Of a stretch of 64,000 nucleotides of DNA, positions 11,701 through 60,321 are shown piece by piece. The notes beneath the pieces were generated by a model. That model did no database searches. It had not been told where the DNA came from and was given only the letters and a program-made list of their open reading frames with translations. Both the position numbers and the translations under genes were made by a program. The stretch is taken from assembly GCF_026151205.1 (NCBI RefSeq), contig NC_087072.1, positions 25,197,799-25,261,798 on the forward strand, read 5' to 3'. Origin of the DNA: Bolinopsis microptera (lineage: Eukaryota; Ctenophora; Tentaculata; Lobata; Bolinopsidae). The first letter of the stretch is position 1. Each line of letters starts with the position of its first letter.

Positions 11701-14700
11701 CACGAACCTGATTTTGAGATTACATGAGTGAGAGATCTTATGAGATGATCCAGGATGTCCTGGTCCTGATTTCTAATTTTAGTGAGTCTACATAGAGTCA
11801 CCAGATCAGATGGCGTGATCCTTGAGTCAGGTGATGTTATCTGAGACTCGAGTTTATCAGCTGAACACAACGAGAGGTAATCCTCCTTGCTCTTGTACAA
11901 CTGAAAATAAAAGAATAGCCATAAAATCTGGCTTAAATAACCGCTGAATACGATAGTGTTATAATATTACTTTCGACAATATAAAACGGTACATTTAACT
12001 GTACTATAATGCTATGTTGCGCAACCATGCTGAAGCTTATTTTGACTACGAGAAGCACTTTAACATAATATGCGGACTCCTCGGAGTACAAATAAAAGAT
12101 AAACATCATCTACTGATCAGTAAATAACTCACCGTTTCCATGAGGTCCCCAAAAACACTGTTCTTGATATGAGAGGAGTTCATACCAGCTGGCTCTCTAC
12201 AGAGAATGTCCACAAGACTAGCTCCATCGTCTGTGTAACTCAACTTTACTGTGTACAGATTATCATCATCTGAGGGATATATTATCGTGATATCAAATGA
12301 GGGAGAAATGGTGGAATGTGGTTTAGTGCCCGCTGTATGTAGATATCAAATGAGGGAGGTATGGTGGAATGTGGTTTATGTAGATATCCAAAATGCTCTC
12401 TAGCTTATTATCTTAATAACTAAACATCATTATGTGTTGGTAAATGTGATCCCAAGACTAGCAGTTTGACGGCTTTGTTGAGAATATGTCCCCAAGTTAC
12501 CTGGTCCCTCCATGAGCTCCAGATAGAAGTCCTCCCCCTCTGTAACCTCAGACATAACCTGCTGGTCTGCTGGATTCCAGTACTCTGTTATGGGGCTGAT
12601 ATCTGCTAGTTTACACCGCACTGCTTGGAACGGCAACTGAAGGTAATCATTCCTTGGGTAAATTGTAGGTATAATGCGTATTGTACTCTACAAGACTTTA
12701 TATCACAGAGTGTAACACATTACAATACAATAATATCTTGGCTGTTGAGTGCTACCCGCGATAATTCCCGATGCTTTAGCGGAGGGAACGCGGGGGCACA
12801 TCTGAGGTGACTCGCAGTCTGTCCTCATAATACTATGGCAACCCTTGCGGAAAATTATCGGTTACCAGTGTCCACGACTTTTCGGGGAAATAATTCCCGG
12901 ATAATATTATAAACCTTAAACCAGACTGGTTTAGTAGCTCCGTTTACACTATTCTATGCTTAGTTTTTTATAATTATTTTCATAATATTATAATCTACCT
13001 GATCAACTTTCAAATTCAATATGCCACCAAGATTAACACGAGCTTCCTAGTTATTTGGATTATATATATTATATTATCACAGAGAATCACAGTTAACAGG
13101 ACAGATTACCTCTAAAATACTAGTTATGCGGATTATCACAGAGAATCAGAGTTAACAGGATAGATTACCTCTAAAAGATGAGACGGTACAGAGAATCACA
13201 GTTAACAGGATAGATTACCTCTAAAAGATGAGACGGTATAGAGAATCACAGTTAACAGGATAGATTACCTCTAAAAGATGAGACGGTACAGAGAATCACA
13301 GTTAACAGGATAGATTACCTCTAAAAGATGAGACGGTATAGAGGATCACAGTTAACAGGATAGATTACCTCTAAAAGATGAGACGGTATAGAGAATCACA
13401 GTTAACAGGATAGATTACCTCTAAAAGATGAGACGGTTTAGAGAATCACAGTTAACAGGATAGATTACCTCTAAAAGATGAGACGGTATAGAGAATCACA
13501 GTTAACAGGATAGATTACCTCTAAAAGATGAGACGGTACAGAGAATCACAGTTAACAGGATAGATTACCTCTAAAAGATGAGACGGTACAGAGAATCACA
13601 GTTAACAGGATAGATTACCTCTAAAAGATGAGACGGTATAGAGGATCACAGTTAACAGGATAGATTACCTCTAAAAGATGAGACGGTATAGAGAATCACA
13701 GTTAACAGGATAGATTACCTCTAAAAGATGAGACGGTATAGAGAATCACAGTTAACAGGATAGATTACCTCTAAAAGATGAGACGGTACAGAGAATCACA
13801 GTTAACAGGATAGATTACCTCTAAAAGATGAGACGGTATAGAGAATCACAGTTAACAGGATAGATTACCTCTAAAAGATGAGACGGTACAGAGAATCACA
13901 GTTAACAGGATAGATTACCTCTAAAAGATGAGACGGTATAGAGAATCACAGTTAACAGGACAGATTACCTCTAAAAGATGAGACGGTATAGAGAATCACA
14001 GTTAACAGGATAGATTACCTCTAAAAGATGAGACGGTACAGAGGATCACAGTTAACAGGATATATTACCTCTAAAAGATGAGACGGTACAGAGGATCACA
14101 GTTAACAGGATAGATTACCTCTAAAAGATGAGACGGTATAGAGGATCACAGTTAACAGGATATATTACCTCTAAAAGATGAGACGGTATAGAGAATCACA
14201 GTTAACAGGATAGATTACCTCTAAAAGATGAGACGGTACAGAGGATCACAGTTAACAGGATATATTACCTCTAAAAGATGAGACGGTATAGAGAATCACA
14301 GTTAACAGGATAGATTACCTCTAAAAGATGAGACGGTACAGAGGATCACAGTTAACAGGATAGATTACCTCTAAAAGATGAGACGGTACAGAGAATCAGA
14401 GTTAACAGGATAGATTACCTCTAAAAGATGAGACGGTATAGAGAATCACAGTTAACAGGATAGATTACCTCTAAAAGATGAGACGGTATAGAGGATCACA
14501 GTTAACAGGATAGATTACCTCTAAAAGATGAGACGGTACAGAGGATCACAGTTAACAGGATATATTACCTCTAAAAGATGAGACGGTATAGAGAATCACA
14601 GTTAACAGGATATATTACCTCTAAAAGATGAGACGGTACAGAGGATCACAGTTAACAGGATAGATTACCTCTAAAAGATTGGATTATCACAGAGAATCAC

Positions 14701-17700
14701 AGTTAACAGGATAGATTACCTCTAAAAGATGAGACGGTATAGAGAATCACAGTTAACAGGATAGATTACCTCTAAAAGATGAGACGGTTTAGAGAATCAC
14801 AGTTAACAGGATAGATTACCTCTAAAAGATGAGACGGTTTAGAGAATCACAGTTAACAGGATAGATTACCTCTAAAAGATGAGACGGTACAGAGAATCAC
14901 AGTTAACAGGATAGATTACCTCTAAAAGATGAGACGGTATAGTCTTGACGAAGTTAGAAGGAACAGCTTTATCTTCGTTACCGTAGTCTACAAAATACAC
15001 GTGGTACTTGTCGTGCCACGTTTTCAATACCTCTGCTCTGTACCAGCTGGAATGAGTAATGAGTATTAATGATACTTAAGAATGTTCTTGTTACTTGTGA
15101 ATCAGACAATTACAATTGAAGTGAAAAGCTGAAATTCTAGTAACGTTCCTCCAGTTCTTACCGGTTATCCTTGCTGTATCTCGCCATACAATAAGTGTGT
15201 TTTGGTAACCAGCTGGGTAGTATACTGTCTAAGAGTTTGTTGTTATTAATCCGGTCCTCCATGTCTGCCAAACTAAGGAAAGGGATATCAAATTGTAGAA
15301 AATAAACAGAAGCATTAACGATATCACTGGTATTGTAAATAATATACTAAGTTAAACCAAAGGAACTAAATTAGTTTCTCCAACAAACCAAGAAATGAAG
15401 AATAAATAATCCAACCTGGCCATGTTTTCGACGATATTAACGTTAAGGTTGTGAGGAGACTCTATATGAGAGACACACACCACGTGCTGTGAACTCTTAT
15501 CTACAGTGACACGTGATATCGTGACGTCACTGATCTCATCTGGTACCTCGTCTGGAAGTGCTTCTCTTACAGCTGCTCGTAGCAGTTTTATGTGCTGGGA
15601 GTTGAGAGTGGTTCAGTTGTTGGTTTCGTGTAAATCATCAGTTATCAATTTTAACGTCCGACTGTACAGTTAAGTGTAAGTTAAGTGTAGACCGAGACAT
15701 ATTATCGCTCTCCACAGTGCACACTGCACTGTCGAGCGGAAGGATTTCTATAAACAAGGGGGCAGAAAATTTTTGTTTACAAACAAATATCAAAGTACAA
15801 ACCTCATCATTGGACACACCAAACATGTGGTCAGAGATGACCTTTTTAACACTAAGCTCGGATGACATAAGTTTCAAGTTCTTCAACAGCTGCCTTTTCT
15901 CAAGTGTTCTGAGAAGGGGATAGTTTTAGGTAAGAAAATGGGACAAAGTTTCAGAGTATCAAAGTGCAGTCGAGATTTGAAGTTAAAATTAACATTTCAT
16001 GATTAGATCATGATCACCGGAAATATATCTTAACTTTTCGAGTGAGATTTTGCTGGAAAAAAGTTTCCTATTCTGACTATCCTACCGAGTAGCATTGACA
16101 AACCTGACCCAGAGAGTGTTGCCGAGAGCTAGCTCGATGTTACCCTCCAGCACTTCCCCCACCACCCTACCAACCAACTCTCTCTTACAATAACTGGAGA
16201 AATGTAGATCATTCTCGGTTGGTTTTATCCCGCACACGATAAGCTCAGTGGTAAAGGCAGGACGTTCAGCTAGCCGAGCAGGGAAACGGTACACAGCTTC
16301 CAGCGGGTAGAGTCCTTCTGAGCCGGTGTCCAGGCACTGACCAATTATACCGTCTAGCTTTCCTTCTCGGTCCGCATTGTAACGGATCGACTTGACACGT
16401 GCTCTGTGGTAGCGAAAGTGTGGGTAAATAACGTGTACAATTTGACTATACTCATCAATCTTTAGTTTTTTTAATGAAATAAGTTTTACTGCGTCGAGGA
16501 GTCTTCTCGGATTGGAAATGTCTTAACAGTAAATTAGTTGTTAGAGTGAATTGTTGTGCTTGCCTGTAAAATATCCCGTCCTTCTTGTCTTTCACTCCCA
16601 CTATAACCTCTTTTCCTCGCTTAAGATTTTCTCGTAGTTGGTCCTCGTCTGTAAAAAGATTGAGGGTAATTCTTCGGTAATTTCACAAATGTTATCTAGC
16701 AAATTTAATGGTTTTGTAACAACCATAAGAGCTGAGCGATATCTTAACAAACGATATAACTAGCAGCGTTTCAATGCGCAAATTGCTCATAATGGGATAG
16801 TGTCTTTAACCTATTTTATGATTACACAATGACGATTTTAGAAAAGGTTCTTACAAATGCAAATTTGTAGTGTTACTAACGAAAACGTACCGATAAGGGA
16901 AGGTTTGTCATTGAACCAGCCCTGGACTTTATCACTGTATCTCTGGAACTCCTCCTCAGCATTAGAACAACTACCTGGATCAGGATCAACTGACATTATT
17001 CTACCGTAGAGCCTGTTCCCATCTGCTACCGAGCTTACTTTCACCTGATCAGTTACTTTTTTTAGTTAGAAATTAAACAATATGTCGTTCAAATTCGCAA
17101 ATTATCTCTTACACGCCAGCTTAAAATGTAACCCGTTTGGAATCTCACCCTGATTTTGCCTTTGAGCGGGAGGTTCATAACTTTGAGACTGGATCCGGGA
17201 GCGTCTGTGACGAGGACCACGTGTCTCATCGAACAAGCACGTGCAGTGCAGGAACCGTACTGCCGCAGATAGGGGCACAGATCTTTTCCTGACTTCTCTT
17301 TCTGTCTTATGTTCTGCAAATGATCGCAACTAGTTTGTGGCTTATCTACAATGGATTCTAATTTGATATTATGCCGAATATTTGTTAGCAGCTCTCAACA
17401 ATAATCTGAAAATTGATCTCACCTCGCCCCTGTCAGCTTTTTCTTGAAGACTCTTCGGTACGGTAACACTGTGTCTACTCAGATACTTGACCAGATTGTT
17501 TACACTTTGTGGATCCTCATCCTCCGTTAGGAAGAAGATGGACAGACAATCCTGAGCCTGTGTAATGGGTATGTTAGTGAGAGATTTCAGCGATATGCTA
17601 TTAACACTATCTAAAAGTTACAATTATTCCAAACTGGCCATATCATTCAGTGACTCACTGTAAGAAGCCCCTTCAGATGGGACTCTAAGAAGGACAGCCG

Positions 17701-20700
17701 GTTGTTGAAGGCAGTCAAGCTGCCAGGCATATCATAGTGCAGAATCACATCACAGTCTTGTACACAGTAGCTCGCAGCCATCACGTCGTTAATAACTGGG
17801 ATAAAATACGGTATAAATGATGTACATCATGTGGGGTCTAATTTAGATCAAACCTCTACATTAGGGTAAAAGTTGAGTGTAATCACTAATCTACTTAACG
17901 TTTCGGTTTGACTGTCATGATAGAACGAGTTGTAGTTCCCCCGTTCACTGTGATCTACAAGCACGTGTTGAAAAATGCGCGTGCGCGCTATCAAATAATA
18001 ATTTTGTTTTCGCGTGTTCCTTCGTTAATTATATATTTGTGGACAGCACGGCGTTTGCCATAAATAGGGGCGAAAGTGAAAAGTAGTCAAATTATCGTAG
18101 TAGAAACACTTTTGTTTCCTCTCAAAATCTATTACAAATCAGCATTGAAAGGCAATGAATCATAAAAGGGTGGAATACTCCCATGTGTTGATTCTCCCTC
18201 TCTGTCACGACCTAGTTAATTCAGGTTTTGGAGTTGCAGTAGAATTTAAGTTAAGAACATCTAAAAACATACCCATAGCGCTACCAGGAGACCAGTTTTG
18301 GAGCTGTGAACCATTTGTATCTAATTCGGTGCATGGCACAGCTTTACTTTTTAGTACCTTGCAGATAAAATAGACGTGAACTGAAGTATTAGTACTTAGC
18401 AGTAGAAAATTATAATGGACTGTAAAAAAGTCCCAACTTTGAAGGATTAAAATATATTTGAAAATACACCTGCACCAAGTCTTCAGAGCGAGATTTTACA
18501 AGGATAGCAGTTTTCTTCTTCTTATCACATAACTTTCTTGTCGTAGATATAAAAGAATCTCTTTTGGAAGCTGCACTGGAGAATTCTTCAACGTACTGAA
18601 AGTTAATTAAAAGCATCAAGAAACACAAATCATAACATAGGGCTTTAGAATAAACATTTGACAATACAAAATTCCACAAATTTAATTAAAAACTGCAAGT
18701 TTTATTTCGATTCATACATAATAATATTATGTATGAAACGAAATAAAACTAAGTATTGTATTATTCTCAACATATTATATTGAGAATAATACAAAATGGA
18801 ATATGATATAATATAATGTACGTACGGAAGTGACGCCCCCAAAGAGGGCAGCCTCTGTTCTGTTCAGCAACATGATGATAGGATCCGTCATGAACTGTCT
18901 GATCACAGCGTGGAACACTGGTAACCACACGTCCGAAAAAAGTGTGATCTGACACGCGTGTGCGTATTCCTGTAGTGGTTAAGTTGGAGATTCCATAGAT
19001 TTAAACAGTACACGCGTGTGCGTATTCCTGTAGTGGTTATGTTGGAGATATTCAATAGATTTAAACAGTACAATTTTTAGAAGCGTAAAGAATCGGCATA
19101 GTGTCCTCAAATGAAGCAAGTGAAAACGAGGAGAAATTTTTATGAGTAATCGTATTAAGCTGAAGAGACAGTAGGTAGAATGTTCCATAACAGCAAGTAT
19201 TTAGAACAATAATAACTGTACCTGTTCACTCCTCTCCTCCCTCAACCCTGCTAATATCTGTTGCATGCTCTCTCTATGTCGAGTAAATAGATCATGTGAC
19301 TTATGTAACACCACGTGACAGGTGCAGTTGTAGTAAATACTCCTGAGAAAATACCGGTTTTTAGTTACATGTAATTCAATTTTCACAAGAAATACACCAA
19401 ATCTATATCCTTGTAACCTTCCAACTATAAAAATACTGTCCAGTAAGTCACTTACTTGCCGTCAGAAGGAATGTGTTCGGTGTGGGTTTTATTACTTACT
19501 TGCCGTCAGAAGGAATGTGTTCGGTGTGGGTTACTTACTTGCCGTCAGAAGGAATGTGTTCGGTGTGGGTTACTTACTTGCCGTCAGAAGGAATGTGTTC
19601 GGTGTGGGTTACTTACTTGCCGTCAGAAGGAATGTGTTCGGTGTGGGTTTTATTACTTACTTGCCGTCAGAAGGAATGTGTTCGGTGTGGGTTACTTACT
19701 TGCCGTCAGAAGGAATGTGTTCGGTGTGGGTTACTTACTTGCCGTCAGAAGGAATGTGTTCGGTGTGGGGTACTTACTTGCCGTCAGAAGGAATGTGTTC
19801 GGTGTGGGTTACTTACTTGCCGTCAGAAGGAATGTGTTCGGTGTGGGTTACTTACTTGCCGTCAGAAGGAATGTGTTCGGTGTGGGTTACTTACTTGCCG
19901 TCAGAAGGAATGTGTTCGGTGTGGGTTACTTACTTGCCGTCAGAAGGAATGTGTTCGGTGTGGGTTACTTACTTGCCGTCAGAAGGAATGTGTTCGGTGT
20001 GGGTTACTTACTTGCCGTCAGAAGGAATGTGTTCGGTGTGGGTTACTTACTTGCCGTCAGAAGGAATGTGTTCGGTGTGGGTTACTTACTTGCCGTCAGA
20101 AGGAATGTGTTCGGTGTGGGTTACTTACTTGCCGTCAGAAGGAATGTGTTCGGTGTGTGTTACTTACTTGCCGTCAGAAGGAATGTGTTCGGTGTGTGTT
20201 TTAACCAGGCTGTCAGGAGTTACAATCAAGATGGTCTGAGTGTTCCACAACTCTGCATGAGGACAGCATTTGGACAAGGTATACGCTTTATGGACACTGA
20301 AAAAAGGAGACAGTCCTATAACTACTCATTTTTAAATTAACGATATCGCAATGCAGAATTTGATGCTTAAAGAGAGTGCTTAAAGAGAATGATTCCCGGA
20401 ATCCGTATAATGAACAGAACAAGATGCTATATGCGGAGAATTCCACGACAGACCATAAATACCTGTGATCATTTCGCTGTATTTCAACGAGGTCTACTAT
20501 CAAATGAATGGCTAAGAAGTGATGTGCTGAAATTCATAAAAATGCCATTTATTCCTCAGATATGAAAATAACTACTCAGATGTTATGAACTTACCTTAGA
20601 GAAAATTTCATAGACTCGTCCAGGGACTCTCTACAGTAATTCATAAGCAGATCAGCGTCCTCACAGGATGGTACGATGATCAATATCTTGGGCTGGGGGA

Positions 20701-27631: not shown

Positions 27632-28115
27632 ACCTGTAGATTCAAGAAAGTTTATCAAAGTTAGGACTAGCTATTTATTGCACAGAATCTGAGCTTCTTA
27701 GCGAATATATTTTATTGCTTCTTAACGCAATTTTCGTTGAATAAGAAAAAGGACTCCTTTATTACTAAGGACTGCCACCAACAAACGATGCGAATAATAA
27801 GCAGGAAGAAAAGAAAAAATCACAAAATGGCGAATTGGGTAGAGACTATAAACGAATCACGAAAGTTTACTTGAAAAAAAGAAGAATAAAACTAGCTGTT
27901 TTCTTGAACAAGTTTGAAATAGAAAATATGCAATAAATTAGAATTAAATAAAATGTCATGTTAAAATGTGTACAAACAAACAGTTACGCTCCAAAAACAA
28001 AGCTTTCACCAAACTTTGTCCGTTTATTAATTTACTATCCGCACATTGTGGCAGTTCTGTAAAATACGCATCATGGCATTAGGTAATCATCACTTGAATT
28101 CCGATACACAATGCA

Positions 28116-43002: not shown

Positions 43003-43947
43003 ACAGCAGACATAACCTGGTGATGGGTTTTAATTGTGTGAATAGAAACATGTTTCTAACTGAAAAGATCTTATAACAATTGTTCACAATTGAATGATTA
43101 TACCTTTCAATGAAGGTATAAAATTATTTTGTTTCCTGAATAAGTGGTATCATAAATTACAAGTGAACACTTCATATAAACACTTACAACTGTAACATTC
43201 AATAACATTTAGATAGCATACAATAAAGTAATATTAGTTAGTGTGTTTTTACAATTATTATCATTTTAATTCTAAACACAGTTAAACGTTTACTATTAAT
43301 ATTACAAAAACAAACTTGTATGATACACGTCACATACCCCTGATTTATTAGCTACCTAACGAAATACACGCACTTTAAAATCGGTATAAAACGGTAACAA
43401 TTGATCTGAGGATCGTATCGAAACTTTGAAAAGGGGAAATCATCGTACACACTTATCTGGAAACGGATAAATGAGTAAAGCATATATTTTCAAAACACCG
43501 GTAGCTCAATCAAATGGCTCATCAACAAACTGGTAAGTTTATTTATCGGGAATAAGTTTTTATCAAATTATATGTAGAAATTCACAAATGTTCTAAATCG
43601 AATCGGCGAATACCGAAAAATAATAAACTTTAAAGTAGAGCCGATCATAAAAAGGATTTTATATGAAGCTTGGACTGTTTATACATTAGCTGATATATCA
43701 GAATTCAGTAACGAACAACTTATGCGAATATAAACGTATAGAAATTATGATATCGAAACACTAAACCGTCTACAAAATACAATTGAAGTCAAACGATCAC
43801 GTTATTGCGGGTTACTGAATAGTTATATTATCAGATTCATCAGAATTAAGCTTTAAAGTTTAGCTCATGGCACTAGGAGGAGCGGGAGCCTTGCTTGTAA
43901 AGTTTAGCTCATGGCACTAGGAGGAGCGGGAGCCTTGCTTGTAAAGT
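43003..43947. other. Intergenic spacer with 3' duplications of the BIN3-like gene end
   Basis: 43003-43850 is AT-rich with no gene seen; it should contain the RPIA promoter. 43857-43947 holds two extra copies of the 44-bp repeat described for the BIN3-like stop region. Confidence 0.5.
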
Positions 43948-43984
43948 TTAGCTCATGGCACTAGGAGGAGCGGGAGCCTTGCTA
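43856..43984. repeat. 44-bp tandem repeat, three copies, spanning a stop codon
   Basis: Each unit on the minus strand reads GCAAGGCTCCCGCTCCTCC, then AGTGCCATGAGC TAA and the first 3'UTR bases. The copy nearest the gene (43948-43984) supplies the real C-terminus KAPAPPSAMS and stop; the other two lie in the 3'UTR. Confidence 0.9.
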
Positions 43985-46190
43985 GACTTTCTAGACATCA
44001 TCCTAGCCTTGAGATTGTTCTGGGGGCCAGTAACGATAGACAGAGATCTAAGTCTCTCCATATTAGCCGCAGTGGAGAGTGTCTCTGTGGACTCGACCTC
44101 GTGTATTGCAGGTTCCAGAGTCTTCCATACTCGCTTGTAGTAGGTTAGTTGGGCTAGCAGTAGGGACTCCAGGCATGGCTCAAAGAAATCGTACTTCCCT
44201 TTGCTGATGCAGCGGAGATCCTAGTGAAAGCGTTAGTACAAATTTATAACAATAACATTTAATAATATGAATATAGTAAATCTTTTATTTCATGACCGTT
44301 CATGATTCAGTCGTCGTTGCCAACTTAAATCTAAAAACTGCAGAGTATATCTGAATTACATATATTATAAAGAAAGAATCAACTCATGTACACACATTAA
44401 GTAAGTTATCGTGAGCTTTGGAATGCCTCTCTGTAGCCTCCTTGTGTATTTTAACTGCATTCTTATACTTCTCTATTGGTATCGGGTACTGGTTGTAGTA
44501 CTTATCTACTTTCTTCTTCAGCTGAAAGTTTGTGGGGTTAAGTAGGCGACATTTGAACGGTTACACACAGACAATTTAGATCAAAAAGATTTTAGTAAAC
44601 ATGATATATTATTACTGCGTTGATATCTAATTGTGAATAAGTCTGAAGTAAGTCTAAGATAACTGAATATAAAATAAGAATACAACTTACATTATCAGCC
44701 TCGCTTTTGGCCTGGGCACGTTTCTTAGTTGCACCGTTCATGTTGTTGAAGAGTGAATGAAGTCTCTGCATTGAAGCCTGAGTAGTTAATCGAACATCGT
44801 CCAGCTGGGAGTACGGAACTTTAAGAATTAGGGCGGGATGAATCAAAGAATGTATAGTATTAGCCATTATTCATTGTACGATTACTAAGACTGAATTATG
44901 TAAATGTAGAGCACATGAAGATTAGTTTATGGCATAGATGCTATCACTAAAGATAGCAAAAAAGGGGGGAAGTTGAGATTCCAAAACAAGAATGAAATGA
45001 TATAGAAATGTGTAGATAACGAACCATCTTGTGTCGTTGGGTGGTAATAAGATCGACACATCTTGTCAGAGCAGAGGGATCGAGCCCTATCTTAGATACT
45101 TGCTTCAAACAACTCGACATCTTGTTCTGGCCCTGGACGAACAATGAGGTAATTGCTAAATTGAACGAACATGTAAATTAATAAACTCTACCCATGATTA
45201 AAATTACGGTTTCACCCCAAAATATCGCCCACCATTACTTAACGCGTACCTTGCACAAGTTGAGCTGGCTAGTCTTAACGCGTACCTTGCACAAGTTGAA
45301 CTGGCTAGTCTTAACGCGTACCTTGCACAAGTTGAGCTGGCTAGTCTTAACGCGTACCTTGCACAAGTTGAGCTGGCTAGTCTTAACGCGTACCTTGCAC
45401 AAGTTGAACTGGCTAGTCTTAACGCGTACCTTGCACAAGTTGAGCTGGCTAGTCTTAACGCGTACCTTGCACAAGTTGAGCTGGCTAATCTTAACGCGTA
45501 CCTTGCACAAGTTGAGCTGGCTAGTCTTAATGCGCACCTTGCACAAGTTGAGCTGGCTAGTCTTAACGCGTACCTTGCACAAGTTGAGCTGGCTAGTCTT
45601 AATGCGTACCTTGCACAAGTTGAGCTGGCTAGTCTTAACGCGTACCTTGCACAAGTTGAGCTGGCTAGTCTTAACGCGTACCTTGCACAAGTTGAGCTGG
45701 CTAGTCTTAACGCGTACCTTGCACAAGTTGAGCTGGCTAGTCTTAACGCGTACCTTGCACAAGTTGAGCTGGCTAGTCTTAACGCGTACCTTGCACAAGT
45801 TGAGCTGGCTAGTCTTAACACGTACCTTGCACAAGTTGAGCTGGCTAGTCTTAATGCGTACCTTGCACAAGTTGAGCTGGCTAGTCTTAACGCGTACCTT
45901 GCACAAGTTGAGCTGGCTAGTCTTAACGCGTACCTTGCACAAGTTGAGCTGGCTAGTCTTAACACGTACCTTGCACAAGTTGAGCTGGCTAGTCTTAACG
46001 CGTACCTTGCACAAGTTGAGTGTACCTTGCATTACTTAACGCGTACCTTGCACAAGTTGAGCTGGCTAGTCTTCCAAGACTTGATACCATTGCTTAGAGA
46101 CTGGGTTCTCTTCTCAAGTTTCCTGTACTCCGCAAACAATCGTTCCTCCTCCGTCTGAGGCTGTTTCTTTCTACGAAACAGTGAGGCCAT
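43948..46190 (-). CDS. BIN3: BAR-domain protein related to BIN3/Rvs161/Hob3
   Basis: N-BAR/BAR proteins bend membranes and act in endocytosis and actin-linked trafficking. Exons in order: 46047-46190 (MASLFRRKKQPQTEEERLF), 45025-45132 (GQNKMSSCLKQVSKIGLD), 44691-44818, 44396-44521, 43948-44220. Helix-rich throughout; the signature is near the end, KYDFFEPCLESLLLAQLTYYKRVW, matching the BIN3 DYFQPSFESLI-type block, followed by MERLRSLSIVTGP and a Pro/Ser tail. About 215-225 residues, close to BIN3 (about 250). The exon 2/exon 3 junction leaves one base missing (ATG then TTCCG...), so either the acceptor is misjudged or a base is lost. Intron 1 is filled by a 36-bp minisatellite derived from exon 1's end. 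Confidence 0.75.
45236..46078. repeat. 36-bp minisatellite, about 23 copies, built from an exon end plus its 5' splice site
   Basis: On the minus strand each unit reads CCAGCTCAACTTGTGCAAG then gtacgc, the 3' end and donor of the BIN3-like exon 46047-46190. Variants keep GT and change flanks (gtgcgc, gtacgt, gtacgcatt). Because 36 is a multiple of three the array is open in several frames on both strands (apparent 250-280-residue proteins), but the exon frame stops at a TAA right after the first unit. Confidence 0.95.
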
Positions 46191-48479: not shown

Positions 48480-49223
48480 GCACTGGGTACAATAGTTATT
48501 GTCACAACCTCAATCTAAAGTTACTTTTGTTTAAAGAGCAACCAAATGTAATAACCATCATTATTTCTGGGCTAGTAATTGAGGGACAATTTAATATTGG
48601 CATTCACTATTCGCTACTAAGAGATCAATTGTATAGTTATATAGTATACTATCATATTTGCGAAGTAATATATTTCATTCAAGACACTGTATTGAGTACA
48701 TAACTTACTTACTTGCCTATTTGAATAACAATAAGTTCTTACTCTATAGAAACAAAAGATGGGCATATTTTATCACAAAATTTACATGCAACTAACAACA
48801 TTGAAAAAATACATCATCAATAATACCATACAAAGATGATGTTAAAAATAGAAAGCAGAAATGTATCATAATTGTTTATTTAAAATTACCCAGCCATTCT
48901 TCCTATAAAATTCCATACACAGTTTACATGTATTTCCGCATTCTTTCGCTTCCTGTACTTGGCATTAATCATATTTTCCCAATAAGACAACAATAAATCA
49001 GTTCAGTGAAAGAAGTAGAAATCAGAAGCAAAAGGTATTATAACTTTTAGACTGCTTCATAAAGAATCATAAAAATAAAATTCCGTAAGATAAAAATTCT
49101 GTTAAAAATCAAATTTGTACACTAAAAAGTACATTTAAACAGGGAAAAAATGCATGAACTGCAGAAAACACCAGCACAGAACAACTTTCCAGTTAACAGG
49201 GGGTTAGCCATGGTGCCCACTCA
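48480..49223. other. Intergenic spacer
   Basis: AT-rich, no open frame or repeat of note. It should contain the GNB1L promoter and the 3' end of the kinase transcript. Confidence 0.5.
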
Positions 49224-51568
49224 TTAAATAGCAACAGTGTTCTTCATGATGCTATCAGTCTTCAATATAGCACATAATATAGCATCTGACAAGGCTTTAA
49301 TGAGTCCAGTAGCCTGCTTCTTCCCATACACTGCTTTTCCATACTCCTTGAGCTTGCCTTGAAGGTCCTTCTCAATATTCCCGCACCTAGTCTGTAGAGA
49401 ATCAAGCTCTACCGTACGCTTCACTTTCCCCATATCTTTATATATTTGCTCAATTTCCGAATACTGGGTGTAAATGTTGTTACTCACATTATCAGTTGGG
49501 TTAATATGATCTTTTTGTATTCTTTCAAAATCATCGTCATCCACCACAATAAGGGAAAGATGCTTCAGCATAACTATTACGAAATCGGGTTCCTGAACTT
49601 GAGCAACGATAATCCTTATTGATGAACACCGAGACTTAATGACATGGATATATTTGCCGTAAGGATCAGATGGCATAATTATCAATGGAGGTTTCCTCAA
49701 CTTTACACTAATATCCTTGGTATAAGTGAATCTGACACGAACAGGAAACTTCAAAGCCAGACATAAGTGGTCAATTGACTTCATGGAGATGACACTTACA
49801 GCATCTGTACTGCAAATTTCATCCTTACTTAGTTCATACTGTCCAAACCCTTCATTTACATTGATCATGTAGCACAAGTCTCGTTTTCTCAATTCACCCA
49901 CAGATTCAAAAAACGCGTCGGCACTTCTCTCTTCAAGAGGCTTGAAGCACTCAAGAATTACATTTAAATATTTTGCTTGCAGGCTCGGTGAAGCAGTTTT
50001 TCGGAGAGGTGATACTTCTCTAAAAGCATTTGAAAATGTTTTTTTGCCGTTTATATTTGATCCCATTATGGCATCGCTTTTTCTAACTTTGTGTAGATCT
50101 AAGATATCATCAGGTGTTGCTGCTGCAAATGCAGCACAATTGCAGGCTATGTACACCAGAGTACATCCTATGCTCCATAAGTCGATATTTGCACGGTATA
50201 CATCCTTGTCTTTGCCCTTCCATTTTGGTCTGTTTTGTTCGTCAATGTAGCGACCAAGCATGTATGTATCCATATAGTCTATAGAACCTGGCATAAAGGA
50301 AAATTAATCACATCATTAAAACTCTACTACATTATTGAAGACTCAGCACTGCACTTTAGTATGTGGAGCGACTTCCACATAAATATTAAAAACGATACTT
50401 ACCTACAATAGATTTCAACTGAGTTGCTGAGTTACCAGCTTCACTGTCATGATCAGTATACTGCTTGGCAGTCCCCATATCAGCAAGCTTGTAAGTAGTT
50501 GATCCTAAGGAGTGATTTTAACATGAATAATCAAATCTCCTTTCACAAGAAATGTATTACTAAATTAATTCAATTTAAGGTGAACATCTATTTTATTTGA
50601 AGATGATATTATGTAAATTACAAACTTATTAAAAGATACAACAATAAATATCTTTTACTGCTCCTACTATAAATTTATCATATAGGCTGAATCAAATTGA
50701 TAAACAAGATTATCCAAATTCGCTATATTATGATGAAATTACCATCTTTGCTGCTGTAGCTTATCATAATATTATCAGGCTTGATGTCTCTGTGTGCAAA
50801 TTTACAGTCTCTCAAATGTTTGTAGCCTGCTGTGATATCTGGAAGAATACAATATAAAAAGTGACATAGATGCTGCATTTATGGAAATGAGTAGGAAAAT
50901 GAGTTTCATTATGTTTGCAAGCACTCAGGGTCAGGGTCTTTAAGTAAAACTCTTGTCCTCTCTTCAAAAGCTCAGTACCAGATACAAATTAATGAATTAG
51001 CTATTACGTATCTCTACACAGAATTTCACATTAAAATTAAGAGAGACACCCCTAAAATATCATTTCAAGTGTCTGGACTTACCAAGAAGTGCTTTGTGAA
51101 AATCATTTACTTTAACACCAAAAGCATTCTCAAGATTGTTTTTCATATAACACATGAGACTTTCTCCTTGACAGTACTCCAAAATCATGTACTGATTTTT
51201 GTCAGACTCAGCATCTGTAAAGTTATCATTTATTTTAACAGTGCTTGAAATTGCAACAAATTCTTGGGGTAATCATAAATTTTACATCAAGTTTGATACA
51301 GACTATGGTCAAAAAAAGTTTTCATCATTTAAAAATTACGAAGTTAGCTCACATACTTACGGTCTAAGACCTGAATTATATTAGGATGCTTAGGTAGTTT
51401 TTTCAAAATATCTATCTCTTTACGAAAGTGAGCTTTTCCTTGGCTGAACTTTTTCGGTTTTTTTATGGCAACTGATTCTCCTGTTCTTTTATCATATCCT
51501 TTGTATACTGTTGAGAATGATCCATCGCCTAATACCACAAGTGAATTTATATATTCACTTTTTTCCAT
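49224..51568 (-). CDS. TBK1/IKK-epsilon-like protein kinase with ubiquitin-like domain
   Basis: Non-canonical IKK kinases act in innate signalling and selective autophagy. Exons in order: 51363-51568, about 51083-51209, 50743-50838, 50403-50504, 49224-50287. Landmarks: LGDGSFSTVYKG (P-loop), VAIKKP (catalytic Lys), QYMILEYCQGESL and NAFGV (compare TBK1 SNAYGL), FAHRDIKPDNIM (catalytic loop), LADMGTAK (DMG in place of DFG), KSIVGSIDYM with a serine at the TBK1 S172 position, ANIDLWSIGCTLV. After the kinase comes a ubiquitin-like region (VRVRFTYTKDISVKL) and a coiled-coil end. About 530 residues, shorter than TBK1 (729), so the scaffold dimerisation region is reduced. The motif set predicts an active kinase. 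Confidence 0.8.
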
Positions 51569-51965
51569 GGGCTAAATGGAAGAATTTGTATTAGAATAAT
51601 ATGTAATAAAGAAGGATAGAACCATAAATTCAACTGATTTATATAGTAGAGGCTGTGACGGCAAAATTCAGATATAACATGTTGTTTCTCTACTGTACTG
51701 CTTCGAGGCAACACACTCATTAATGCACACCCAGAGGTGTGCCATGGTTACAATTATCCTGCAGTTAATTTACCAGAATGATATGGAAATCCATGATATT
51801 ATTGAGGATTAAATTCATAATTCATTCATTAATAATAAATCAGGAGTATTCTTACCAAAAGACCTTAGAACTTTTAGGAGTACAATTAGGTACATGTGTA
51901 ATGTAAAGAATTACAATTGTCTTATTCTATACTAATAATAATAATTGTGGTTAATACCAACTCAC

Positions 51966-52268
51966 AATAAGACCAGTGGCGTAACGATGGCCCCCGCTGA
52001 CCCACTGTGCAGGGGGGCGCCGTCTTAGGGGGGCGCCAAATCGTCGTTTGAATGTGGGACAATTTTGAAAACTTAACTAAAGTATTAGCAAATCTGCGCA
52101 TTTTGCTCTAGATACACACTTTTTTAGAGATTTTACCGGCGCGTATCCCCTAAAATCACCTAATTTGTTCAATTTTAAGAGGTGGGCACAAAAGGGGAGG
52201 GGGCGCCAACAGGGGGCGCCTTTTCGGCAGGGGGCGCCAACAGGCAACGTTACGCCACTGAATAGGAC
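51966..52268. mobile_element. Non-autonomous hAT-type element with 8-bp target duplication
   Basis: Ends are CAGTGGCGTAAC at 51974 and GTTACGCCACTG at 52260, the common hAT terminus. Flanks are AATAAGAC (51966-51973) and AATAGGAC (52261-52268), an 8-bp duplication with one change. The 287-bp interior is rich in GGGGGCGCC and non-coding. Confidence 0.9.
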
Positions 52269-52304
52269 ATTGGTGGTCGAAATGGTTGTTTATCATGATC
52301 CTCC

Positions 52305-52567
52305 TCACAGGAGGAGCAAAGTGCAAAGAAACTGGCACAAACTGCTACTAACTGCTACTAACTGCTACAAACTGGCACTAACAGCCACAAACTGCTACTA
52401 ACTGCTACAAACTGGCACTAACTGCTACAAACTGGCACTGACTGCTGCAATCGGGCCCACGCATTCGCGCGCCGTTTGCAGCAGTTTGTAGCAGTTTGTA
52501 GCAGTTAGTGCCAGTTTGTAGCAGTTAGTAGCAGTTTGTGACAGTTTCTTTGCACTTTGCTTCTCCT
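52305..52567. mobile_element. Inverted-repeat element with internal 10-bp tandem repeats
   Basis: Left end ACAGGAGGAGCAAAGTGCAA and right end TTGCACTTTGCTTCTCCTGT are near-perfect inverses. Between them are tandem ACTGCTACAA/ACTGGCACTA units on the left and their complements on the right. Probably a miniature transposon. Confidence 0.75.
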
Positions 52568-53640
52568 GTGTCCTTTATTATGCAAATAGTCTCGATATAA
52601 TTTACTTCCTCTAAAGCTATATCTGACACAGAAGTTGCCTCTGTCTACTAAAACATTATATAGATTAGTTCCTAAAGATCAATTTCAAAATCAAAAACAC
52701 CTAACATAAAGTGGCAAATTGTTTTTATTACCTGATAAGACGTTTTATAGCTGATATAAAACGTTTTGATGTAAAAAGTTATTTGAAGTATTTTCTATCA
52801 ATATTGTAAAATAAAGTGAATACAAAATTGCAATTGACAACAGTATTTATAACAAAAATTAGAAATTCCTATATAAGCCGATTTAACCTTAAATGTTATG
52901 ATTTGAAGAAAAATTATAAATTATTCAAACAATATACACATAATTTTCACAATGACCCTATGTAAAAACAAACCTTTAAAAATCAATATATTCCCTATTT
53001 CAAATATTGGGAGAAACATTTGAAAATCACCCTTGGACCGGCCTTGTGGCTCCAAATTTGCTCTAACCAGAGCCCTCTCAGTAGCGCGCAACCGCCGAAG
53101 GAGGTCTACTTGTGAAACAAGCGCATCAATCAGTACGCGTATACACATGCAGCTATGTGAAGCTCCAAATTCAAATCTTAACTATTTATATTAACAAAGT
53201 TTTTTCGCGCACCTCTGTCTCAATTGGAAAAAAATTGGAGGACATCGCCGCTTTGAATAACATCAGTCAACAAGAACAATCATTTTTGCTTCGCAGAACG
53301 TTGCTTTGCTTCGCAGACCAACGATCTCGAAGGGACCAACGATCTCGAAGAGTTGAAATCGTCAATAAAAATAAAACAATTGACATTAATTGAAGTATAG
53401 AATTGATGCAGTTCTTTAAACATTATAATTAAAATATAAAATTTAATTTATTATACCCATAATACCCATTATACCCATTATACCCATATACATTTGACAT
53501 TGCCAATTGCACATTGAATAGGTACAATATCAATAAAAAACATTTAATAGTGCACGTGATTTTGTGCGCGGCTGTGACTGGTTCTAAACGATCATGTGAA
53601 TGCTAGTAACGTGCGCTCTAACATTCAATGAGCATCCGCA
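52568..53640. other. Intergenic DNA without recognised gene
   Basis: AT-rich; short open frames only. Contains a small duplication GACCAACGATCTCGAAGG near 53317-53350 and a TACCCATTA microsatellite near 53453-53487. Confidence 0.4.
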
Positions 53641-53647
53641 CTTTTTT

Positions 53648-53806
53648 TACTGGGCCGCGCTCAGCCTGTCATTCCGCCTAATCTCTATGAACATAATAGC
53701 CTGAGGTCCCCAGGTAAACTTTTTTTCAGGACGATGGAGGTCGTAATTCATTTTCAGCTCGAATTTAGATTCGGCGGAATGACAGGCTGAGCGCGGCCCA
53801 GTAAAT
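53648..53806. mobile_element. Miniature inverted-repeat element, 159 bp
   Basis: Left TACTGGGCCGCGCTCAGCCTG at 53649 and right CAGGCTGAGCGCGGCCCAGTA ending 53805 are exact inverses, with the pairing continuing through ATGACAGG/CCTGTCAT. Non-coding. Confidence 0.85.
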
Positions 53807-53984
53807 CGCAACCACATATCGCAACGTATGCATTTAGCATTACTGAGCCGATACGAGCAGTGAGGGATTTCAAAAATTTAATTATTGTTACAGTGCTTGA
53901 TTGACGATGTCAACCAATCGAGATCGTTGCTCTGCGAAGCAAGTCAACGATCGCGACAAAGAAGCTTAATCATATTGCAAAGAA

Positions 53985-55420
53985 ACATGGATTTAACATC
54001 CTATCCACATGTATGCAGATGACACCCAGCTTTACATTGAGTTTAAGGGGGGGGGGGGGGGGGGGTTCACCCTGATTTTTTTGTGAAACTTGGTTTCGAG
54101 ATAGCAGTTGACCAACAAACTAGGACCGGTGACCGAACTTTTGAGGGGGTCCCGAACCCCAACCACCAACTGCCAAACAGTTCCCGCAGGGCAGCCACGC
54201 CCATATTTGGTCCAAATTAGGCCCAATTTAGCCAAATACCCTGAACATGCTCAAAATACAGATTTAAGGTGCTTTACTTGTAGCTAGTGGTCCCTTGAAC
54301 TCGTATATTATGACGCAATGAAACTACCGGACTGCGATGTATGGGGACTTGCCACCCCATGGCAACATTAAAATATATCTGATTTTATATATATGAATTT
54401 TCATCAAGATTGGACAAAAAATGACTGAGTTATGAGCCAAAAACCATATGACCATATTTGGGCATACGCTCCAAAATTGATAGATTTTGGCCCATAAGTT
54501 AGTCAAATATCAATATTTTTGAATTAAACCAACTTTATATGGAAGGTAAGCATATACTACACATTCTCTATATATGATTATCAGCTCAATATCTACCTAA
54601 CTGTGGATTCTGTGTTCAAATAATCGCAAAAAATGAACAAAATCGCCCATATCTCAGTTCGCGATATTTGTAAAACTGATTTCGCTCAAAACAATAGAAC
54701 TCAATAGGGTTTCAATATTTTTACATGAAATTTTCAGAATCAACGTAGAATCGCATTTCGACCTTAAGTTTTGGGACAGAATTTTGAGTTAGGCCTTTAA
54801 AAAAATTTGGCGGCCAAATTCCAAATTTTGCAATGCGAAATTCAGAGTTTAGGTGTCCTCTTTGATCAATTCCTTACGTTTGAAGACCAAGTCAACTCAA
54901 TCATCAGTTGTTGCAACATCCATTTGACGAACCTTTGAGTCATAGGCTCAAAGCTTAACTATGACCTAAAAAGACAGCTCGTCCACTGCTTGATCTTTTC
55001 AAAACTGGACTATTGCAATGGACTACTATATAATGGCTTACCTGATTTTCTCCTTAGAAACTCCAGAAAGTACAAAATTCCTGTGTTCGATTCTTGTTTG
55101 GTAGAAAAACTATTGCAATGGACTACTATATAATGGCTTACCTGATTTTCTCCTTAAGAAACTCCAGAAAGTACAAAATTCCTGTGTTCGATTCTTGTTT
55201 GGTAGAAAAGCTATTAAAAATGGGACAGTGTTACTCCATTCCTGAAAAAGGCCCATTTTCTTCCAATAAGACAACGAATAGAGTATAAAATTGCTCTAAC
55301 CGCGCCGTATTCAAATGCGTCAACAACATAGCTCCAGACTATATCACCAAATGCATTGACATCAAGAGTCAACCTGTATGTGCAGTGTACTACGAACTGA
55401 ACAAGATTATTTCCTCCTAG
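53985..55420 (+). mobile_element. Broken LINE remnant with interruption and internal duplication
   Basis: HMYADDTQLYIEFK (54008-54046) is the reverse-transcriptase catalytic box. After a G-run and about 750 bp of unrelated repeat, LGVLFDQFLTFEDQVNSII (from 54850) and LVHCLIFSKLDYCNGLLYNGLP (from 54976) give the RT thumb of a CR1/Jockey-like element. A segment of about 95-104 bp (CTATTGCAATGGACTACTAT...) is duplicated in tandem at 55012 and 55110. Frame breaks and stops make it inactive. Confidence 0.75.
54047..54800. repeat. Repeat inserted in LINE remnant, related to the 7-kb fold-back element
   Basis: GGACAAAAAATGACTGAGTTATG and GGGCATACGCTCC here resemble GGACAGAAAATGACTGAGTT and GGGCGTACGGCTC at 7729-7790, so both belong to one repeat family. 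The left edge is a run of about 18 G. Confidence 0.6.
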
Positions 55421-55509
55421 ATGTTCCTCCTGCTCCAAACTATAGTAAAACAGCTCAGAGAAGTTTTTGCTACTGTGGACCCTCCGTTTGAAATAACATT
55501 CCCACATCA

Positions 55510-56163
55510 CTCCATAAAGATCTATATCACACTCTGTTTGAAAGCTATCTTGCATATGGTATAACTGTCTGGGGAGGGGCATCTAACAAAAAACTTGAAC
55601 CTCTGTTCAAAGCACAGAAAATGTGTGCCCGCATAATGTTTGGAGATAAAGAAGCATACTTGGATAAATTTAAAACTAGTGCACGATGCAGACCCTACGG
55701 GGAGCAAATCTTGGGCAAGGAATTCTACAGAAAGGAGCATACAAAACCCCTCTTCAACACTCATGAAATCATGAATGTGCATAATCTGTACTTCTACCAT
55801 TGTATTAATGACATCTTCAAGGTCTTGAAATATAGAACCCCTATATCACTATACTCCCTCTTTGAAACATCTGGCAGACTTGGCAAAGAGACACTCATTC
55901 TCACACCTAAACCATCAGACAGCTACATATACAGAGCAGGGACAATATGGAATACAGTACGACAAAATCTCATGCTAACTACATTCACCTGTTATAAGCC
56001 CAATCACCTCAAATCATCCATAAGAATCACCATCACTCACACTCAAAAGGAAGGAGAACCAAATGACTGGAACTTAGCCTTAAACAGCGTTCGACAAAAT
56101 TCAAAAACTTTAAAATTGACCTTGCCTAGATTACTTAAGCTTGAAAAAGCGGTAATATCTTAG
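55510..56163 (+). mobile_element. Second LINE fragment, reverse-transcriptase C-terminal part
   Basis: Open frame reading YHTLFESYLAYGITVWGG, KLEPLFKAQKMCARIMFG, HEIMNVHNLYFYHCINDIF, AGTIWNTVRQNLM, stop at 56161. This is the conserved C-terminal region after the thumb in Jockey-like elements and differs from the remnant just upstream, so two elements were truncated here. The 3' tail is not clear. Confidence 0.75.
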
Positions 56164-57367
56164 CAAAATATAACTTGCAGCAGCCCCATACCTTGTCATG
56201 AACATAATATCGAAACTACCTCTGTGATCACATCTTTCTCTGGGTGCAAAATGAATATATATAGGTTTATTAGTTTTATAGAAATTTAAAAGTTCTATAG
56301 AAATTTATTATATAAGGATTATAAACATTTTGTTTGTGTGTTTTGAGTTATGCATTTTTATACCTATTTTAGAAGAGATTTTTATAGAATGTTACAAGTG
56401 CAGTAGGGTCAGTTTCAGACGAATTAAGCATAAATGACATCATTGCCATGTCTGAAGTGGTTTGTAAATGGGCCATTGTTAGCCCCAAGCGTTTTGGTCC
56501 CTCATTCCTGCCACTCAGCATTGCCTACTGTAAAGTAGAAATTTTTCTAAGATAATAGAGAAACTGACCTTGTCTCACTAAATTCAACCACTTAGGTACC
56601 ATAATAAAAATACTAACAACCAAATAAAGTTTTTTAAATAATTATATACAATCACCAAAAATATTTCCTCAAGTTTACTTCTAGCTAACTAATTCGTGGT
56701 TTAAGCTCTTATTTTATTTATGATTAAAGGAATGTAAAATAAAACTTTTCGTTTCATTGAAAAAACTTTTCGTTTCATTGAGCTTCCCTATAAATTGAGA
56801 ACATTGACTGATATTGCCTTGTTTAAAAAGAGACTCATCTTTTTGAAAAAGTATTCATATAAGTTTCATAAAATAGCATACTTCATAAATTGCTAAGTTC
56901 TTATGTACATGTTCATTGTTTATGAGTCGCTTTAGATGGCTTGAACTGAATCTTTAGATTTTGAGTTCTCTTTGGCTATAAAGCGATGTATACATTTTTA
57001 GTTATTATTATTATTTTTTTTTTGAAAGAAAGACATGCCATGAGAAGTCAGAAGATTTGAGTGAATTTTATATTATTTAATCATACTGTTCCTGTGCGAC
57101 ATGGTATCTATTTAATTTCAATTCGTCAAAATATTTTATTGTGTTAACGACCTTGAGAAATTAACTTCCGACAAATCTGTTTTAATTAGCAAAATCGAAA
57201 AAATATTAAGGGGCCTGTTAATAATTAATTAAATTATTAACTATTTTAGATTTGATGATAATAATAATAACATCACTTTAAACTTCTATTAATTGTTTCC
57301 ATAATTTAGGAGATACACCATGGCATGTAGTTAATCCATTGGAGAGTGCCCTTGCTCAAAGTATGAA
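56164..57367. other. Intergenic DNA upstream of the SMIM13-like gene
   Basis: AT-rich with a 22-bp tandem duplication at about 56744-56781 (AACTTTTCGTTTCATTGA) and poly-T near 57011. A stretch near 56781-56960 (IENIDxIALFKKRLIFLKK-like in plus frame, then TTATTATTATT) resembles the 3' end of a LINE. No gene called. Confidence 0.4.
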
Positions 57368-57703
57368 ATGGATCTCCATCTGATAGCTGTTTCTGCTGCC
57401 TCAATTTTGGGATCTCTCATCGTTCTTGCTATCTTCATAATCTCAGGTAACAGAATGATTTGTTTATCAAAAGGTGAGCCCTATATTTAAATAATTTGCG
57501 GTACTATAATTTTGTACTTCGTTTGTACTTCCCTATCAATAATTTGTATAAACCATTTTTCAGCGTGGTTTGTCCTATGGAAGCTGCTTCTATCAAAAAT
57601 GCCTGTTTTTAGGGCCATGTTTGGTTTGGACAGAGAAGAAACTGTAGCTGATCAGGCAGCTGTTCCACCTACAGAGAAAGCAAGGAACAGAAAAGTTGAC
57701 TAA
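57368..57703 (+). CDS. SMIM13: SMIM13-like small integral membrane protein
   Basis: Two exons, 57368-57446 and 57564-57703, give a 73-residue protein. Residues 6-27 (IAVSAASILGSLIVLAIFII) form one membrane helix, followed by AWFVLWKLLLSKMPVFRAMFG and a charged tail REETVADQAAVPPTEKARNRK. The post-helix block matches human SMIM13 (WYFVWHLFLSKFKFLREL) in spacing of W, W, LSK and F-R. Donor CTCAG|gtaaca and acceptor tttttcag|CG join in phase. Function of SMIM13 is unknown. An overlapping frame from 57512 is not the start, because it reads through the intron. Confidence 0.75.
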
Positions 57704-58634
57704 GATGTTTTAAATATAAAGTGATTCCTTATTATATTGCAATCATTGAGTGTACTGGCGGTTTTTTCACTATTTTTACTTGGCATAGATCTGCGCTGGT
57801 TGTAAGAAAATGTGCTTGAAAATGTTAGATTTCGTAAAAGTGTTATAAATTCATCATAACAGGCATAAATTACCAACATTAAAATTTGTTTTTCAGATAA
57901 TGACATACAGTTAATCATACTTCATTAATTTGATAAGAGTATAATAATAAGAAATTTAAGAAAAATTTTTAAAGAGATAACTATTAACTATATACATTGA
58001 AAGATCTGCTGTTGTTGTTTTTATATTCTTGTAGGACCATTCGCGTTATTAAGATATTAATAATCATTAAATAAATTTGAATTTTTATCTTTTATGAGTA
58101 GCTGAAATAAGGGGCAAGAGCAAAGCTTTTAAATTATTCAAATTATTATAATTTTTATAAATTTGTTTAAACGATTTCTAAAAGCAAATATGATAGAAAC
58201 GTTTGCTTGACCACACAGTGCGGGAATGCAAAAAAGTTACTGCAAAGTATTTTTGTTGAATTTAGACGACTTCTAGTGGGGACGTGACATAAATATCAAA
58301 GCAGACTTTATTCCAAGTCCCTATCAGTTTTCTTGGCAACTAAGTGTTTTTAATATAATGATCTTAGTGTGTTTTAATTTATGTTCAGAATTTGATGTTA
58401 ACAATTTATTTTCAGTGTCTGCCATTGACTATTTTCATAAGCTGACATTAAACTACAAAAGAGTTTCCTAACCGTAACTACTTTTATCTGCAGCGCATGA
58501 TTATAATTTAAGCTAAAGCTTTAATAAAAAACTTGATGCAAACAGTATTTTATTGTTAACTTTGCCATTGCCATTGTACTGGTTAGAAAAGACTTATTTT
58601 CATGAAGTTAAACCATTTCCTCTGCGGTATAGGA
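57704..58634. other. Intergenic spacer, SMIM13-like to VPS28
   Basis: AT-rich, no repeat or open frame of note. It must hold the VPS28 promoter. Confidence 0.5.
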
Positions 58635-60321
58635 ATGTATTCAGCTAATAGTGGCAGACGTCATGAGAGAAGGTTCGACACAAACAGACCTGAATTATAT
58701 GAGGTTGGTGCATTTTCAATTAGTAAAACCAATCACTATTTAACCAAAGACGCTATTTTAGTTTGTTGTGCATTTGTTGCTTTTAAATTAGATTTATTCC
58801 GAAATTTTCGGAGTATTTAAAAACTCTGTTTTTTAAGAGATGACATCAAAATTCATAAAAATTGTGTCTGCACTCAACCCTAAGTAACTTATTTTAAGCT
58901 AATCTTGTCTGCTACTCAGCATACAGTACAGAAATTTAAAAGATTAATATATAAAACTTGCCAGGAGGTGAAGTTGTTCCGAAATGCTCGTGAAAGGGAA
59001 AAGTATGACAACATGGCTGACTTGTTTGCGCTTATCCAAACACTACAGTGCCTGGAAAAAGCTTACATTAAAGATGCTCTTACAGCTAAAGAATACACTG
59101 AGGCGTGCTCCAAACTTTTAGCACAAGTCAGCGTGAGTATGCAAGCTTCCTTTGTTGAGGCTAGGGGGGGGGGGGGAGGCTACAACACGACTACTGGACC
59201 GTGTCTTATGGCCTGGAATACTTTCCTAATTTATATACATCTGACATTTTGTAGTACATGAACTGAACTGTTGTAACATGGACTGTAAAATTATCTTTGT
59301 CAGTAGTGAATTATGTAATTAATTTAGTGTAACATATTTTGTCGTAGGCAGCATTCAACCTGGTTAAATCGAGTGCCTACCCAGACATACCAACATTTAT
59401 GAAGGAGTATTACTTGGACTGTCCTGCAGCGTTACAGCGAATTGAGGAGGGCAAGCCAATCACTATACAGGATAACCAAGGTGAATACAAAACTTAATTC
59501 TAAATTAATGTAATAATATAATTAAAGTAGTGTCCTGTTTTTTAGCACAGCTGTCCAAAACTACCAAACATTTAATCATCCAAATCATTTCAGGAAATAT
59601 CAGCAAGAGTATAGCTGATGTGATATCTTTGTACATCACTCTGTGTGACAAACTTCAAATGGATATGAGAGCTAAGGATGAGCTGTACACCGATTTGAAA
59701 TGCTTGGCAGATGTTCTAGACCGGATGAGTAACCTACCGTCCGACTTTGATGGCACGAAGAAAGTATATTTCTGGTAAGTTCTTTATGTTATTTCTACGT
59801 CCAAGTATTTAGTATTACTCGATTTTTTCCTTTTTGACTATCGCATATTGCAAAATACACAGTACATCAACTACGAGAAGGAAAAATATACAACTAAAGC
59901 CTCAGGACCAAGGAAATGTAACACTTTAATAATAATTGTTCAACATAAAATCAGGTTCACAATTAAAACTCCGCCCAATTCCAGTCATAATCCTAAGAGA
60001 GTAAGAGCTTAATATATTAAATTATTTTCTTAAGGTAGCTCATTTAACAAGTTGAATTTGCTCAGGGTTGGGGAACTGGACAAGTTGTATTTAACAAGTT
60101 GAATTTGGTCAGGGTTGGGGAACTGGACAAGTTGTATTTAACAAGTTGAATTTGGTCAGGGTTGGGGAACTGGACAAGTTGTATTTAACAAGTTGAATTT
60201 GGTCAGGGTTGGGGAACTGGACAAGTTGTCTGCAGCAGATACGCTAGATGAAGAGCAGGTCAGACAGATGGTATTCGACCTGGAGTCCAGCAGGGAAGCA
60301 TTCGTCCGAACACTTGGATAG
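58635..60321 (+). CDS. VPS28: VPS28, ESCRT-I subunit
   Basis: VPS28 is a core ESCRT-I subunit and links ESCRT-I to ESCRT-II through its C-terminal domain on endosomes. Exons: 58635-58703, 58965-59132, 59348-59480, 59594-59774, 60207-60321. Protein: [14 protein letters not shown]..., [29 protein letters not shown] (near identical to human), [32 protein letters not shown], then the C-terminal four-helix domain [29 protein letters not shown] and [20 protein letters not shown]. About 220 residues, normal length. The last exon is preceded by four tandem copies of its own acceptor; only the last (60206/60207) keeps the frame without added codons. Confidence 0.95.
60037..60230. repeat. 47-bp tandem repeat, four copies, built from an exon start plus its 3' splice site
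   Basis: Each unit reads TTTAACAAGTTGAATTTGGTCAG then GGTTGGGGAACTGGACAAGTT. The AG/GG junctions fall at 60065, 60112, 60159 and 60206. The last is the acceptor of VPS28 exon 5. Since 47 is not a multiple of three, upstream acceptors shift the frame. Confidence 0.93.

Follow-up and report, generated by a model that had tools for sequence, protein, structure and literature searches.

Why do so many tandem arrays within one stretch of ctenophore DNA lie across the ends of exons? The window, by which we mean the whole stretch analysed, is 64,000 nucleotides of Bolinopsis microptera (contig NC_087072.1, positions 25,197,799 to 25,261,798). A first-pass annotation of it had noticed five arrays copying an exon end together with its splice site, three at donors and two at acceptors, and all five were confirmed by TRF and by reading the flanking exons. 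It had added that no named system of this kind was known, which is wrong: minisatellite-like duplications of intron/exon boundaries, at both boundaries, are described in amphioxus under the name of mirages, in Adh3, globins and PGBD5 (PMC3087553, PMC3902484). The arrays found by TRF in the window, including one at a stop codon that was absent from that annotation, are as follows (unit length x copy number):

13140..14942, minus strand: donor-spanning array, 50 bp x 36.0, at the 3′ end of the tudor-domain exon of a TDRD12-like gene; exon-adjacent donor at ~14920/14919, and an extra degenerate copy at ~13080-13139.
18952..19072, minus strand: acceptor-spanning duplication, 58 bp x 2.1, TDRD12-like gene; the exon runs from ~18969 toward lower coordinates.
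19450..20200, minus strand: donor-spanning array, 39 bp x 19.0, where a helicase-like exon of the TDRD12-like gene ends; exon-adjacent donor at ~20168/20167.
43850..43983, minus strand: stop-codon array, 44 bp x 3.1, BIN3-like gene.
45238..46073, minus strand: donor-spanning array, 36 bp x 23.1, BIN3-like gene, where the first coding exon ends (ATG at ~46190, donor at ~46047/46046).
60042..60229, plus strand: acceptor-spanning array, 47 bp x 4.0, at the last VPS28 exon, which starts at 60207 and is joined by the last copy.

The five junction-spanning arrays have units of 36-58 bp in 2-36 copies and, read against the flanking exons, each unit consists of an exon end plus its splice signal. The three donors all lie on the minus strand (GAG/GTAATC, CAA/GTAAGT and AAG/GTACGC, the slash marking the junction), and the acceptors are one on the minus strand (TACAG/GAAT) and one on the plus strand (GGTCAG/GGTT). 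In the donor arrays the copy nearest the exon is fused to the exon body, and the intron holds the remaining copies. Of each acceptor array, the final copy is the one fused to the exon. In both TDRD12-like donor arrays and in the BIN3-like array, the edge copies are unlike the more uniform inner copies, as judged by eye. In the BIN3-like gene, the 43850..43983 array runs across the stop codon, from the final codons into the beginning of the 3′ UTR, and is a mirage at a coding end, not at a splice site.

The joints of the duplications were compared by eye in the six window arrays and in L031, an array found elsewhere in the genome. In 5 of these 7 arrays, 2-4 bp are common to both sides of the joint: AAG in the BIN3-like donor array, TGT in the TDRD12-like acceptor duplication, CT in the first TDRD12-like donor array, AGC with one extra base in the stop-codon array, and ACCT in L031. 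The VPS28 array has no bases in common at its joint, and the joint of the second TDRD12-like donor array was ambiguous. This sharing would fit slippage or microhomology-mediated duplication.

The gene names given in the first-pass annotation held in part. Pfam recognised the tudor exon (TUDOR, 2.3e-9) and VPS28 (4.9e-56). The BIN3-like gene reads by eye as about five exons from ATG to stop, and gave no Pfam match and no PDB sequence match. Another exon of the TDRD12-like gene (16085-16522) had no Pfam match either, and the helicase-like identity of the exon at the 19450..20200 array comes from reading alone, so that the TDRD12-like label appears backed for the tudor exon and is not supported beyond it.

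What would the extra copies do if they were used? In all five arrays translation ran into a premature stop, whether it was continued beyond the exon-adjacent donor or begun at an upstream copy of the acceptor. At 13140..14942 the stop comes ~15 codons past the exon-adjacent donor, ahead of the second donor; at 19450..20200 a TAA follows immediately; at 45238..46073 the stop is the fifth codon. On the acceptor side, the upstream copy at 18952..19072, read in the presumed exon frame, gives a stop after 8 codons, and the three upstream copies at 60042..60229 give one after 15 codons of reading. In all three donor arrays the next donor lies beyond the stop, so a transcript spliced at any later donor would contain it. 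With premature stops in 5 of 5 cases, the normal protein therefore needs the exon-adjacent copy, and it is presumably this copy that the spliceosome uses. These frames also bear on the idea that repeated donors are selected for, providing redundancy or proteins of variable length. Each array does offer dozens of near-identical donors, and the inner BIN3-like array sits in a 266-codon open frame; the stops found at once or within ~15 codons past the exon-adjacent donor, in 3 of 3 donor arrays and so in the BIN3-like one too, make such selection very improbable.

Taken with the anatomy, the arrays are probably mirage-type minisatellites, tolerated since the exon-adjacent copy is intact, and sited by ordinary duplication. 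A short tandem duplication would by chance cover an exon edge; it would be harmless, with splice site and frame intact in the exon-adjacent copy; and the extra copies, lying in the intron, could then expand and homogenise through minisatellite turnover (slippage, unequal exchange). We infer this order of events and the turnover mechanism. The first-pass annotation had proposed, among other origins, slippage from short duplications, or selection that tolerates such repeats only; duplication of the slippage type together with tolerance fits the anatomy.

Might placement by chance alone be enough, arrays falling anywhere, with no motif preference and the window being a lucky cluster? Arrays were retained if they had a period of 25-130 bp, at least 1.9 copies and at least 85% matches, low-complexity units being excluded. 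Nine arrays of the window passed this filter, 5 of them at junctions, and the probability of at least 5 of 9 is 1.6e-5 to 1.3e-3 assuming 60, 80 or 120 junctions in the window, a figure biased by the window having been picked for the feature. For a comparison outside the window, eighteen 10-kb stretches (180 kb) were sampled at random from contigs C1-C13 below 14 Mb, and here only 1 of 23 filtered arrays was shown to be at a junction, the other 22 having been judged with weak annotation. The exception, at 9597-10000 of L007 and continuing in L072, lies by reading at the donor of a coding exon, which looks zinc-knuckle-like. The difference between 5 of 9 and 1 of 23 gives a Fisher p of 0.003, for a non-random window and weakly annotated random stretches. 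An annotation-free junction score that includes coding potential reached p<0.1 for 2 of 23 random and 2 of 9 window arrays. Its power was low: neither of the true acceptor arrays in the window was picked up, and in L007 it pointed to a wrong site. Thus the window is locally rich in junction arrays, and the 180-kb random sample gave no general junction excess, at low power.

The scarcity of junction arrays in the random sample speaks for chance placement, and so do the arrays that lie fully within long open frames (L003, L074) or across a stop codon. Against it stand the low in-window probability and the strong dependence of array counts on motif described below, AGGTAAGT and AGGTTAGT being far above AGCTAAGT and the reversed strings; placement by chance alone is distinctly unlikely. 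The in-frame minisatellites are at 11034-11095 of the window (minus strand), L074:7089-7442 and L003:7612-9717, and their units of 30, 42 and 66 bp are multiples of three. Together with the stop-codon array, those of L003 and L074 suggest that the same process strikes other parts of exons too. Another repeat of the window, a 101-bp duplication at 55009-55215 (plus strand) with a perfect donor-like string, was excluded as a junction, as its plus-strand reading looks like a reverse transcriptase, which we take to be of LINE type.

A different possibility, raised by the first-pass annotation, is that a process linked to splicing or transcription (R-loops, spliceosome-linked breaks) duplicates exon-intron junctions; the presence of 5 of the 9 filtered window arrays at junctions would agree with it. 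We searched 264.65 Mb of genome, in which contigs C1-C8 and C10-C13 are each of 15-26 Mb, for tandem pairs, defined as motif sites at gaps of 22-52 nt, the number of clusters being estimated as pairs minus triples. The donor motif AGGTAAGT gave 10,772 sites, 1,825 pairs and 1,487 triples, hence ~338 clusters, against 7,977 sites, 44 pairs, 12 triples and ~32 clusters for the reversed string, genome-wide counts which in repeats may be lower bounds. Per distinct site, AGGTAAGT is therefore about 10 times as array-prone as its reversed string (an estimated 338/8,947 versus 32/7,933). Its 1,825 pairs are also far above the 755 of a dinucleotide shuffle, AAGTAGGT, and the 356 of a string with no GT, AGCTAAGT, differences that speak for a splicing-linked process, pair counts being weighed heavily by single large arrays and repeated families.

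The tenfold enrichment was first a candidate for a splice-specific effect, but it rested on the reversed-string control, and this reading was dropped in view of the one-base, shuffle and no-GT controls. A poor donor with one base changed, AGGTTAGT, yielded 4,106 pairs from 14,397 sites (178 pairs from 13,633 sites for its reversed string), and is thus no less array-prone than AGGTAAGT; over C1 0-1.68 Mb, 5 AGGTAAGT and 6 AGGTTAGT clusters were counted among the matches listed. We conclude that arrays prefer AGGT(A/T)AGT-like sequence, a preference that does not follow donor strength. A possible GTT donor was read in the BIN3-like gene, and AGGTTAGT might act as a donor occasionally, so that it may not be a clean splice-dead control if GTT donors are common. 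In the 37 arrays of 20-130 bp from the random sample, units did not surpass matched non-repeat sequence in their best donor score (Fisher combined p 0.25), which also counts against a splicing-linked process.

Two further structures came up with the donor motif. At C1:1164786-1174568, AGGTAAGT recurs mostly at ~1,034-bp steps, which suggests a tandem array with a unit of roughly 1 kb. At C8:7268823-7269127, a 37-bp array has as unit TTATTTCAG followed by GTAAGT, an acceptor directly against a donor, similar to a recursive splice site.

Acceptors were examined in the same way. Genome-wide, the acceptor motif TTTTNCAGG gave 342 pairs (85 when reversed) and the AG-killed version TTTTNCTGG 173 (103 when reversed), a twofold difference in raw pair counts in the direction expected of a splicing-linked process. 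When clusters from C1 to C7:11.3 Mb were counted by eye among the first 100 matches listed for each motif, there were 29 for the acceptor and 40 for the AG-killed motif. Those with at least 2 listed pairs, over the same range and matches, numbered 16 and 12, slightly in favour of the acceptor. Many of the single pairs are seemingly due to chance or to dispersed repeats. All in all, the acceptor motif shows no clear excess of clusters over the AG-killed one.

Do arrays carrying the donor motif lie at real donors? We examined 20 of them at their exon-side edge: 6 from the pair and triple listings, one 79-bp pair (L023), and 13 of 14 from another listing, an 11-bp array at C8:17904441 being excluded. 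For comparison we took 11 AAGTAGGT control arrays and, from C1, 20 AGGTAAGT sites that stand isolated, both sets being judged by a coding score. About 7 of the 20 arrays lie at the end of a plausible coding exon. Pfam matches were found for the exons of L022 (Sushi), L023 (Sushi), L025 (dynein-type) and L037 (WD40-type), only L023 being over the curated cut-off; L031, L033 and L040 were recognised as coding by reading alone. At the other 13 no coding exon was evident, among them L034 (an 11-bp-type repeat) and the pair L021 and L024, which have one 32-bp unit in common. Junction arrays thus recur across the genome.

The coding score was at or over the 90% null level in 6 of 20 arrays, in 6 of 20 isolated sites and in 2 of 11 controls; among these, the L021 and L035 arrays are low-complexity readings, and the isolated sites L059 and L060 gave an identical peptide. 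At the 95% level, the counts were 1 of 20, 2 of 20 and 1 of 11. The score failed to flag L031, L033 and L040. True donors were not shown to be more frequent at donor-motif arrays than at the motif in general, and the equal frequency of coding exon ends at arrays and isolated sites at the 90% level is a further point against a splicing-linked process. Such an origin, this part of the first-pass proposal, is not demonstrated, and the nearest controls, the one-base donor and the AG-killed acceptor, lean the other way. We consider it unlikely.

That arrays favour certain motifs is a separate oddity of this genome. Within the reading that we prefer, ordinary duplication with tolerance, AGGT(A/T)AGT-like sequence is over-represented in arrays, and so donors may be struck partly for their sequence and not for splicing. 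A stronger version, in which AGGT(A/T)AGT-like motifs are a sequence-specific hot spot of tandem duplication, exon ends thus being mutational hot spots and introns growing by mirage arrays, strikes us as rather doubtful; were it true, donor neighbourhoods would be hypervariable between individuals. Other repeats were seen in passing. L012 and L017 (C2, ~0.5-0.85 Mb) hold several 8-bp arrays of CCAGGTAA, TACCTGGT or GTAACCAG, alone or within longer units. TTAGGG tracts occur at many interior places of C1 among the matches listed, and overlapping matches to five TTAGGG repeats numbered 1,932 forward and 1,756 reverse genome-wide.

How do these arrays compare with known systems? They share unit size, homogeneity and turnover pattern with ordinary intronic or coding minisatellites, and differ from them in that the unit includes an exon edge. 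Papers on tandem repeats and splicing have also appeared for C. elegans (PMC4039745) and human (PMC2812944). In the literature searched, junction-spanning mirages were found in amphioxus only, with no report from ctenophores. The Rogers model has introns gained through tandem duplication of AGGT proto-splice sites, as cited in PMC3087553. As in that model, the duplicated segment holds an AG/GT boundary; unlike in it, no new intron was seen in the genes read, ordinary exons bound the introns, and the copies lie inside introns.

The likeness to amphioxus mirages is closer. According to the two amphioxus papers, splicing is undisturbed by mirages, their length is unstable, their units measure 10-160 bp, their edge copies are less homogenised, and the globins concerned are BflGb6/BflGb9 (PMC3087553, PMC3902484). 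The window arrays likewise have a boundary-spanning unit (five arrays), occur at both 5′ and 3′ boundaries, donors and acceptors alike, with copies carrying AG/GT signals, have unit lengths inside that range and, by eye, inner copies homogenised with the boundary copies excluded. They differ in belonging to a ctenophore lineage and in being known here from one assembly's sequence alone. Copy number goes up to 36 in the window and to 44 among the repeats listed, at C1:428574, whereas the two BflGb6 haplotypes have 6 and 3 units. The arrays are thus real, recurrent and of a known type, in a lineage that is new among the literature found. Very long arrays of near-identical donors, one of which has to be chosen, offer a natural test of splice-site selection among identical copies, and junction-spanning minisatellites are hereby extended from amphioxus, the source of the sole reports found, to a ctenophore.
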